DNA of 35,245 nucleotides from the NCBI GenBank assembly GCA_019236695.1, contig JAFAIN010000026.1, positions 1 through 35,245 of the forward strand. The letters are read 5' to 3'. The notes under the pieces were generated by a model. That model searched no databases. It saw nothing but the letters and a program-made list of their open reading frames with translations, and was not told the DNA's origin. Below, one piece after another: positions 15,110-17,618 of this stretch. A program made the translations under genes and the position numbers. How positions within the stretch are numbered: position 1 is the first letter of the stretch; each line of letters starts with the position of its first letter. Source of the DNA: Acidobacteriota bacterium. Its GTDB lineage: Bacteria > Acidobacteriota > Terriglobia > Terriglobales > Acidobacteriaceae.

Positions 15110-15361
15110 TCATCGTCCTCGTGATAATGACACGTGCAAGAGGAGGCAGGCGAACGCTACGAGCCCCAACCGTCCCAGCCACGACACTGAGAAATGCTGG
15201 GCTACCCCATTCACCACGACGGCAGTGATTGGAACCAGCCAAAGCTCCTTCTGTATCCGCGGGGCCTGTGCAAACGATGTCCGGAATGATCTCAACGAGG
15301 CGCGTGCATCCTCGAAGGTGTCTTTCGAAAGCCTGAGGTTTTGTTTGAACTGTTCGAACAT
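15110..15361 (-). CDS. Small membrane protein of unknown function (83 aa)
   Basis: ATG 15361 is preceded by a G-rich GGGGGGT stretch at short spacing. The first 45 residues are charged and probably helical (M-F-E-Q-F-K-Q-N-L-R). Two hydrophobic segments follow, around 46-58 and 63-80, and the end is S-L-S-R-G-R. This layout, an amphipathic N-terminus with a hairpin of membrane helices, is protein-like, but no family is recognised. It sits between the ADOP gene and the repeat block on the same strand. It could also be a chance frame. Confidence 0.4.
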   Translation of the reverse strand: MFEQFKQNLRLSKDTFEDARASLRSFRTSFAQAPRIQKELWLVPITAVVVNGVAQHFSVSWLGRLGLVAFACLLLHVSLSRGR

Positions 15362-15407
15362 CGACACCCCCCGATCGTACGACTATCCGTGAGACACCGG
15401 AGGCACA

Positions 15408-15501
15408 GCCCGCGAAGCGGGCGGAAGGGCGTAGCCCAGCGGCGTAAGCCCTGGGAAGAGGGGAGCGGTTCCGATATCAGCCCTCGAAGAGGGCGAAAGA
15501 A
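15408..15501 (+). repeat. Multi-hairpin structured element, copy 1
   Basis: Successive hairpins: a 6-bp stem with GAA triloop at 15408-15422 containing the mini-hairpin GCGAAGC; a 4-bp stem with GTA loop at 15427-15437; a CCCAG/CTGGG plus GGC/GCC stem with a GTAA tetraloop at 15435-15455; and a 6-bp stem with GAA loop at 15480-15494, followed by GAAAGAA. The second and third stems share three bases, so they may be alternatives. The same order recurs in the inverted copy. Confidence 0.8.
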
Positions 15502-15540
15502 TTAACGCACTTGGAGAATCCAGTCTATTTGGAAGCGACT

Positions 15541-15631
15541 TTCTTTCGCCCGCGTTGCGGGCTCGAACCATATCCGCCTTGTCACCCATGGCTTACGCCA
15601 TGAGCTACGCTCTTTCGCTCGCTTCGCGAGC
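15541..15631 (-). repeat. Multi-hairpin structured element, copy 2 (inverted)
   Basis: Read on the minus strand: stem GCTCGC/GCGAGC with GAA loop (15617-15631), GAGC/GCTC with GTA loop (15602-15612), CATGGC/GCCATG with GTAA loop (15587-15602), and GCCCGC/GCGGGC with AAC loop (15548-15562), then GAAAGAA. Loops and linkers are mostly conserved relative to copy 1, whereas several stem positions change on both sides so that pairing is kept. Confidence 0.8.
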
Positions 15632-15683
15632 TTTTGTCGTGGGGCAGCCTGCTTGGTCGCTACAACCTGCGTGCAGCGACAGC

Positions 15684-15764
15684 AGCGGCCTTCGGCCCCC
15701 TGTCCGGCCGAGGGCGGCCGGACCCACGTCACACTCTCGACCGAGGGCGGCCGGACCCACGTCA
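15684..15764 (+). repeat. REP-like palindrome with CCACGTCA tail, copies 2 and 3
   Basis: The full copy has a perfect 8-bp stem GTCCGGCC (15702-15709) and GGCCGGAC (15716-15723) with a 6-base loop, then CCACGTCA (15724-15731). A second, 5'-truncated copy follows at 15738-15764 with the same 3' half and tail. Placed just after the GH13 gene, they may also act as a transcription stop or mRNA end for the minus strand. Confidence 0.75.
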
Positions 15765-15767
15765 TTC

Positions 15768-17618
15768 CTACTTTTTCAGTTCGCCGATAAAGACGCCGTA
15801 AGGCTCAAGTTTCATGCTGGCGGGCTTTTGATCGCGCGCGGCGTTCGAGGTGAGCAGGGCGTGCAGCCTGGCTTTCACCCCGTAGCCCTGGCCGGAGAGA
15901 TCGAGGCTCACGGTCTGCGCCTGGGGCGACATGTTGAGCGCCACCAGCAGGGCATGACCGCGATATTGCCGCAGATAGGCCATGACGTTGGGATCGCGCT
16001 CGTTCAGCGCGACGTAATTGCCTTCCACCAGCGCCATGTTGCGATGGCGAAGGCGGATCGCCGCGCGGTAAAAATTCAATACCGAGTTCGGGTCACGGCT
16101 CTCGCTTTCAACATTGTGGGTCTGGTAATTCGCCGCTATGGGGAGCCATGGCTTGCCGCTCGTAAAGCCGGCGTTAGGGCCGGAAGTCCACTGCATGGGC
16201 GTGCGCTCGCCGTCGCGGCCCTTTTCCAGCGGCCAGCCGCGCACGCCAATGGGGTCCTGCACTTCTTCGCGGCTTACCGGATCACGGTTCTCCATGCCGA
16301 GTTCTTCGCCGTAATAAAGGATGGGTGTACCGCGCAGCGTGAGCAGCAGCCCGGCCAGCAGCTTTGCCACCTGGTCTGTGGGATGCGGGCCGCCGTAGCG
16401 GTTGTAGGCGCGCGTGATGTCGTGATTGCTGAACAGGTACACCGGCCAGCCGCCTGCACTCTCCACCAGCGCAACCTGGCGGCGGAATTCCGGCGCGGAA
16501 AGGCGATTGACGTTGGCGAAAAGGAAATCCATGGGTAACTGGATCTCTGCCTTGCTCTCGCCGTAATACTCGCGGAGTTGCGCGATGTTTTCGGTCCAGG
16601 TTTCGCCGATGAGGACGGCGCCATACTGGTCGGCGAGCTGGCGCAATTGCTGCAGCACTACATGGTTCTCCGGAAGGTTGTCGTTGTAAATGCGGCGCTG
16701 CAGCGGCATTCCGTAGGCATCCTTGCCGGGCACGGCGTTGGGCAGGGGATTGCCGGCGGCATCACGCAGGATAACGTTGGGCAACGGCGGGTTATCGCGC
16801 AGATCGGGATCCTCAAAGAGCGTATCGACCGCATCGAGGCGGAAGCCGGCCACGCCGCGCTCGAACCAGAAGCGCGCGGCTCTGAACATGGCATCGTGCA
16901 CTTTGGGATTGCGCCAATTCAGGTCAGGCTGTGCCGGATCAAAAAAGTGGTAATACCACTGCTGCGTGGTGGGGTCGTACTTCCACGCGGTGCCGCCGAA
17001 GATGGAAGTCCAATTGTTCGGCGGTTGCTCGCCGCCAGGCGCATTGGGATCGAGCGGCGGCATGGGCGGTTGGGAAACGTCAGGCGGCTTGCCATCGCGC
17101 CAGATGTACCAGTCCCGGTATTCGCTGCTGCGCGATGATTTCGATTGCAGGAACCAGGGGTGCCTGTCGGAGGTGTGGTTCATCACAAAATCGAGCACCA
17201 CCCGAATGTGGTCCTTGCGGCCGCGCGCCACCATGCCATCGAAATCGGCCAGCGTGCCATACATGGGCTCGATATCGGTGTAGTTGGAAACGTCGTAGCC
17301 AAAATCCACCTGCGGTGAAGGGAAGCACGGCGTAATCCAGATGGCATCCACACCGAGCGACTTGAGGTAGTTCAGGTGGCTCGTGATCCCTTTAAGATCG
17401 CCGATTCCGTCATTGTTGGAATCGGCGAAGCTGCGCGGATAAATTTCGTAAAACACCGCATGCCGCCACCAGGGGTGGCCTTCGCGATCAAGGGCCGCCG
17501 GCTTCTTCTGGGCTGCGGCGGGCGCAGGAAGCAGCAGCGCCAGGGCAAGCGTGGCCAGGAGTTTTTCCCAGCGGAGGCGCGGACGCACGGAGGAACCCTT
17601 TTTTTGACTGGTCATCAT
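15768..17618 (-). CDS. Secreted GH13 alpha-amylase-family enzyme, alpha-glucosidase/oligo-1,6-glucosidase type
   Basis: The 616-aa protein has a signal peptide (hydrophobic core at 20-35, A-P-A-A-A-Q cleavage). The catalytic barrel starts with W-W-R-H-A-V-F-Y-E-I-Y-P-R-S-F. Region I is D-F-V-M-N-H (143-148), region II F-R-L-D-A-V-D gives nucleophile D262, region III G-E-T-W-T-E-N gives acid/base E339, and region IV N-H-D is 398-400. The Q-P-D-L-N-W segment near 230 is typical of the alpha-glucosidase/oligo-1,6-glucosidase branch. It should hydrolyse short alpha-glucans outside the cytoplasm. ATG 17618 follows AAGAAG and lies six bases after the stop of the upstream gene, so the two form an operon. 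An insert of about 50 residues (P-P-D-V-S-Q-P-P) lies near 178-202. Transglycosylation activity cannot be excluded. Confidence 0.92.
   Translation of the reverse strand: MMTSQKKGSSVRPRLRWEKLLATLALALLLPAPAAAQKKPAALDREGHPWWRHAVFYEIYPRSFADSNNDGIGDLKGITSHLNYLKSLGVDAIWITPCFPSPQVDFGYDVSNYTDIEPMYGTLADFDGMVARGRKDHIRVVLDFVMNHTSDRHPWFLQSKSSRSSEYRDWYIWRDGKPPDVSQPPMPPLDPNAPGGEQPPNNWTSIFGGTAWKYDPTTQQWYYHFFDPAQPDLNWRNPKVHDAMFRAARFWFERGVAGFRLDAVDTLFEDPDLRDNPPLPNVILRDAAGNPLPNAVPGKDAYGMPLQRRIYNDNLPENHVVLQQLRQLADQYGAVLIGETWTENIAQLREYYGESKAEIQLPMDFLFANVNRLSAPEFRRQVALVESAGGWPVYLFSNHDITRAYNRYGGPHPTDQVAKLLAGLLLTLRGTPILYYGEELGMENRDPVSREEVQDPIGVRGWPLEKGRDGERTPMQWTSGPNAGFTSGKPWLPIAANYQTHNVESESRDPNSVLNFYRAAIRLRHRNMALVEGNYVALNERDPNVMAYLRQYRGHALLVALNMSPQAQTVSLDLSGQGYGVKARLHALLTSNAARDQKPASMKLEPYGVFIGELKK

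Follow-up and report, generated by a model that had tools for sequence, protein, structure and literature searches.

The window analyzed here, a stretch of 35,245 nucleotides from an Acidobacteriota bacterium, carries two structured elements that face each other, with a short ORF (15110-15367) on one side and an alpha-glucosidase-like gene (15768-17618) on the other, and the question raised by this locus is what such an intergenic pair represents. As described in a first-pass annotation, which reported two facing copies of about 92 bp some 40 bp apart with a common order of hairpins and a common GAAAGAA tail, elements of about 93 bp are found at 15407-15501 on the plus strand and at 15541-15632 on the minus strand (covariance-model matches of 90.8 and 91.2 bits). 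Their tails point inward, 39 bp lie between them (15502-15540, assigned to neither strand), and the whole unit spans 226 bp. The best explanation of the pair, with a probability of roughly nine in ten, is that it derives from a small single-strand transposon with an IS200-like tnpA and is itself a non-autonomous unit of MITE/REPIN-like kind.

Each copy consists of three hairpins, namely two side hairpins with GNA loops (H1 and H3) and a REP-like core with a TAG foot and a GNNA-type loop, and alignment of the copies places H1, the core and H3 in an identical order before the shared tail. On the plus strand, copy 1 begins with H1 (15408-15422; GCCCGC-GAA-GCGGGC, with a GNA triloop) and continues with the TAG foot (15432-15434), which lies directly 5′ of the core hairpin and is preceded by G to read GTAG. 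The core itself (15435-15455; CCCAG(C)GGC-GTAA-GCCCTGGG) is followed by a variable linker of 24 nt, H3 (15480-15494; GCCCTC-GAA-GAGGGC) and the tail (15495-15501). In copy 2, read on the minus strand, H1 is GCTCGC-GAA-GCGAGC (15617-15631), the TAG foot is at 15605-15607, the core occupies 15585-15604, and H3 is GCCCGC-AAC-GCGGGC (15548-15562). Relative to shuffled sequence, the two copies fold with z-scores of -2.5 and -3.8 as RNA, and of -2.7 and -2.6 as DNA. The stem differences between the copies are paired in H1 and H3, as had been claimed. The middle hairpin proposed at the same time (GGGC-GTA-GCCC / GAGC-GTA-GCTC) is rejected as a conserved stem, its cells being paired in 54.2% of cases compared with 54.4% after shuffling (36 copies); the hairpin actually present in the middle is the core, which overlaps it and reads CCCAGCGGC-GTAA-GCCCTGGG in copy 1 and CTCATGGC-GTAA-GCCATGGG in copy 2.

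The same element is repeated many times in the window's own genome, where BLAST returned 58 matches and a covariance model (R1) trained on 36 of the copies returned at least 92 at E<=1e-3. The consensus starts with H1 (AGCCCGC-GAA-GCGGGC-GRAAGA), the TAG foot and the core (CCCNGGGC-GTAA-GCCCNGGG), and ends, after about 24 variable bases, with H3 and the tail (AGCCCTC-GAA-GAGGGC-GAAAGAA). Among the 36 copies, standard pairs occupy 99.2% of pair cells, compared with 92.3% in shuffled alignments, and pairing drops to 22-51% when partners are slid by 1-3 columns. The helices that define H1, the core and H3 are paired in 99.5, 98.6 and 99.5% of cells, respectively, and one position of the core stem shows four pair types. 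Absence of further copies, or stem changes that break pairing, had been named as observations that would speak against a selected fold; further copies were found, and their stem changes preserve pairing.

The arrangement of these copies is not that of single scattered hairpins. Neighbors within 300 bp of each other are tail-to-tail in 20 cases, head-to-head in 1 and direct in 6 (tail-to-tail versus head-to-head, binomial p 2e-5), and 41 copies are without a recognized neighbor. Tail-to-tail spacing is 13-23 bp in 16 of the 20 pairs, most commonly 17-23 bp, with 39 bp in the window pair and 130 bp in a pair on contig C20. Because several doublets at different places have the spacer and both arms in common, spread seems to occur by doublets and not by single elements. 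The family thus shows what characterizes REPIN-type doublets, namely two inverted units with a preferred spacing that act as one.

In the sister species G001, of the same genus, a single weak element match and no Y1_Tnp gene were found; the family has therefore either expanded or been lost within the genus. At the corresponding place in G001 the window pair is absent and the neighboring genes are also different, and neither movement nor excision nor an empty site was seen. These observations also bear on the present role of the pair, which might be that of a domesticated host element (a terminator, an mRNA stabilizer or a protein-binding site) derived from a transposon and now immobile. Such a role is compatible with a transposon origin, and it would agree with the intergenic position of the pair, with the host roles that REPs have acquired elsewhere in bacteria, and with the result that no full-length cognate tnpA was found in the own assembly (87.8% complete). 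The near absence of the element from G001, however, leaves no conserved host role visible in the genus, the copies are mostly complete with the intact pairing given above, and no T-run follows the hairpins, all of which makes domestication unlikely.

The transposon origin itself is indicated by relatives in which the members of some inverted pairs are separated by 450-500 bp. At five loci in four other genomes (L041-L045), the space between the inverted copies is filled by a Y1 gene of about 148-150 aa, which starts a short way behind one GAAAGAA tail and whose stop codon lies shortly ahead of the other, so that the autonomous form is a unit of about 630 bp made up of a three-hairpin end, tnpA and the same end inverted; no tnpB lies between the ends. 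The enclosed proteins match PF01797 and no other domain, score 58.8-76.6 bits with NF033573 (the NCBIfam IS200/IS605 model; cut-off 55), and score below the cut-off of the RAYT model NF047646. They carry an HUH motif (mostly DHVH or NHVH), WQ and the signature YxxxQxxHH, of which Y115, Q119, H122 and H123 are invariant in 20 aligned transposase proteins, and the nearest solved chains are ISDra2- and ISHp608-type transposases (PDB 2xm3, which we take to be ISDra2, and 2a6m). The earlier statement that no transposase is nearby is thus true within the window, and it misleads in that relatives hold the transposase between the same two ends, in the position occupied by the 39-bp spacer, where no tnpA remnant was recognized. 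It misleads also for the window's own genome, in which the C20 pair encloses, directly between its tails, 130 bp that correspond to tnpA codons 1-43 and are 60% identical to L041. At L166 (genome G051), another pair encloses a truncated Y1 gene, and both cases represent the step between the full transposon and the gene-less doublet. The window pair accordingly shows one feature of a MITE-like non-autonomous element, namely ends in common with an autonomous transposon whose transposase it lacks.

Two other Y1 genes of the own assembly were considered as cognate enzymes and rejected. L031 (1290-1950), the sole full-length YxxxQxxHH gene of the assembly, is of the right class and has three-hairpin inverted ends, but these ends differ in sequence, with a different core, GTAGCCCGGCATGAAGCGAAAGCGGAATGCCGGG, which has a single match in the genome. 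L032 (1000-2250) is a true RAYT, above the cut-off of NF047646, flanked by repeats of its own around GTGGGAGCACCGGCCTTCAGGCCGGTG without an R1 match; together with these repeats it makes up a further REP system of this genome. The presence of this RAYT, together with the TAG foot at the hairpin, the doublets and the high copy number, which resemble REPs and REPINs, would suit a classical REP/BIME family mobilized by a true RAYT (TnpA-REP). The RAYT present is nevertheless surrounded by other repeats, as noted, and in element-bearing relatives the element flanks 16 of 18 YxxxQxxHH genes compared with 1 of 12 YxxxNP RAYT genes, this one weakly (Fisher p 1.5e-5). Moreover, the flanked proteins pass NF033573 and fail NF047646, and lack the Y---NP motif of RAYTs. 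Classical mobilization by a RAYT is therefore highly improbable. The designation "REP/RAYT-type" in the first-pass annotation holds in kind, since the doublets of inverted hairpins go together with a Y1 HUH transposase; the pair is not a classical REP/RAYT system, because its cognate enzyme is an IS200-like Y1 protein (YxxxQxxHH) and true RAYTs are without the flanking element.

The association of element and enzyme extends well beyond the close relatives. When the aligned transposases were used to scan named genomes, at least 80 loci were kept, whose hosts, named as in the records and mostly metagenome-assembled with some names doubtful, include Acidobacteria, Planctomycetes, Verrucomicrobia, Calditrichaceae, Hydrogenedentota, Nitrospirae, Deltaproteobacteria and others. 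With the window-tuned model R1 and an element within 150 bp of the gene, a correctly oriented element was found among the 80 loci listed upstream in 48, downstream in 46, on both sides in 36 and on at least one side in 58, at median gaps of 15 and 11 bp. Elements in the wrong orientation numbered 6 and 2, about 5% per side being expected. Twenty-two of these 80 loci have no R1 match on either side; by eye, some of them (L095, L146) show divergent ends, and other loci have the identical layout with stems wholly different in sequence. The three-hairpin inverted-end layout is also present on a Persicobacter plasmid (Bacteroidota, L207) and absent from a Bernardetia plasmid (L206). Across 149 genomes of the phylum, element and transposase occur together in 26, the element alone in 7, the transposase alone in 4 and neither in 112, as raw counts uncorrected for kinship and obtained with an element model tuned to the window. 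The occurrence of the same ends around tnpA elsewhere, the specificity of flanking, this co-occurrence and the C20 remnant together make a non-autonomous derivative the best reading of the window pair.

The two ends of a transposon evolve together. Left and right core stems are 94.6% identical within a locus and 63.2% identical between loci (p 2e-20), and H1 and H3 are also more similar within a locus, to a lesser degree than the core. As the core matches best between the two ends, it is likely to be the part that confers specificity.

In an alignment of 150 diverged copies, which was fitted to the model and is biased toward it to that extent, 98.6% of cells hold standard pairs, compared with 71.5% after shuffling and 38-52% in slid controls. 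Helices 1, 2 and 3 are paired in 97.5, 99.6 and 98.4% of cells, and double changes occur at 19 of 20 pairs (622 cells). The core foot is conserved, T being present in 136 and A and G in all 150 copies, and the base before it varies (ATAG 49, TTAG 39, GTAG 39 of 150). Core loops are GNNA or TTCA/TTTA, and those of H1 and H3 are GNA.

Strong covariation in all three stems, and the GNRA-like sequence of some core loops (GTAA, GCAA, GTGA), would also be expected of a structured RNA, either riboswitch-like or a small RNA, in which case the fold would be selected in RNA; a structured RNA was one of the possibilities raised in the first-pass annotation. Against this, a search of Rfam with both window copies gave no match at the gathering score, and the copies are inverted in pairs and oppositely oriented where a transposase gene starts and where it stops, with stems that co-evolve between the two ends of a given transposon. 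Many core loops, furthermore, are not GNRA (TTCA, GTCA, GCCA, TTTA), and the GNA triloops of H1 and H3 suit DNA mini-hairpins. An RNA with a function of its own is thus very improbable. GNA and GNNA loops form very stable DNA mini-hairpins; this stability, together with the several core loops that depart from the RNA rule, makes it more likely that the fold is selected in single-stranded DNA than in RNA.

Movement of the non-autonomous derivative can be modeled on IS608, ISDra2 and TnpA-REP. In these systems, the enzyme binds folded single-stranded DNA from one strand, and the cut is chosen by guide bases lying 5′ of the hairpin (PMC8266576). By analogy, the conserved TAG foot and loops probably mark one strand, and TnpA, acting on single-stranded DNA, would read the strand on which the TAG foot, the core with its GNNA loop and the side hairpins with their GNA loops are displayed. 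It would then cut near the ends and move the doublet as a whole in trans. The doublets spaced 13-39 bp, which form the majority of pairs, may have arisen when tnpA was lost from between the tails.

Among known systems, the family shares with IS200/IS605 (IS608, ISDra2; TnpA class 1.1) its closest solved proteins, an HUH plus Y...Q enzyme above the NF033573 cut-off, hairpin ends with a 5′ foot and, by analogy, an expected single-strand mechanism. IS608-type ends are two unlike hairpins and not inverted copies, whereas the family has matched inverted composite ends, many gene-less doublets and no tnpB. The likeness to REPINs and RAYT/TnpA-REP (PMC3116915, PMC8266576) lies in inverted dispersed hairpin doublets with a foot motif, a tie to a Y1 HUH enzyme and, apparently, mobilization in trans. 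In contrast to REPINs, which have one hairpin of 20-40 nt, each end has three hairpins and about 93 nt. Also distinct is the enzyme, which is YxxxQxxHH and not YxxxNP, with ends that lie against its start and stop codons in a transposon-like layout. The foot is GTAG in the REPIN/RAYT systems (GT[AG]G at a 20-40-nt palindrome in the general definition) and NTAG here, on the core of a larger composite.

Three described groups of Y1 enzymes also come close. By motif only, the enzyme resembles TnpA_Y1 subclass 1.2, with its Y---Q--HH signature and a C-terminal extension after it (PMC6006769). That subclass is of low copy number, mostly from Cyanobacteria and Bacteroidetes, and generally without typical terminal structures (PMC6006769), whereas the present family occurs in Acidobacteria, Planctomycetes, Verrucomicrobia and others, with large derived populations and structured inverted ends, the latter even on the Bacteroidota plasmid L207. 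Class 3 likewise comes from Acidobacteria and Planctomycetes and has structured high-copy repeats, about 600 in Solibacter usitatus. It is rejected by motif, having Y----Q, W[TA], a CnGA foot and 178 aa (PMC6006769) compared with Y---Q--HH (YIxxQ), WQ, NTAG and about 148 aa here. In TIRYT/TIRtrons, inverted repeats lie on both sides of a Y1 gene, some copies are dispersed, and Acidobacteria are among the hosts (PMC3733652), which recalls the present layout; they mostly belong to subclass 2.1 (Y---NP, HTH C-terminus) with GGGGWSAS repeats (PMC6006769), and are rejected by motif, the present enzyme being YxxxQxxHH, about 148 aa long and matched by PF01797 alone. A search of the open-access literature for the repeat letters and for REPINs or IS200 in Acidobacteria and Planctomycetes returned only PMC3733652, PMC6006769 and related papers, and within that literature this transposase branch is apparently undescribed.

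Among bacterial repeats, REPs and REPINs belong to the most common, and their origin from IS200-like transposons and mode of movement are still open questions. The full transposons show that a wide branch of the IS200-type transposase family yields REP-like repeat populations, and each form, from the full transposon through the internally deleted copy to the gene-less doublet, is found either in one genome or among relatives. Evenly poised is the broader proposal of a phylum-spanning class, in which IS200-type YxxxQxxHH enzymes and co-evolving matched three-hairpin ends founded REPIN-like populations independently of RAYTs, and which may be intermediate between IS200/IS605 and REP systems. Since ends and enzyme evolve together, the many natural enzyme/end pairs offer a direct way to test cleavage, specificity and transposition in trans. 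The system also accounts for a frequent unannotated intergenic repeat in genomes of Acidobacteria, Planctomycetes and Verrucomicrobia.

Several smaller features accompany individual copies. In one subfamily (L003, L007, L010, L011, L013, L026, L029), about 50 bp are in common outside one arm, beyond H1 (GGTTTGGCGCTTCACTAGA...CCACTCCGCGAAGCCCCAAAATGAA), and may be either a target repeat or part of a mobile unit that could be larger there. At L027 (330-1650), two copies with near-identical outer flanks bracket a small stretch of two genes that resemble an antitoxin and a PIN toxin; this may be a cassette that was duplicated or carried along. Beside the copies at L005, L015, L020 and L030 lie short tandem repeats of GAATTGCCGAATTGCGG type. 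In the window itself, a second intergenic repeat, CGGCCGAGGGCGGCCGGACCCACGT, occurs twice in tandem at 15700-15765 and resembles sequence beside the copies L004 and L079.
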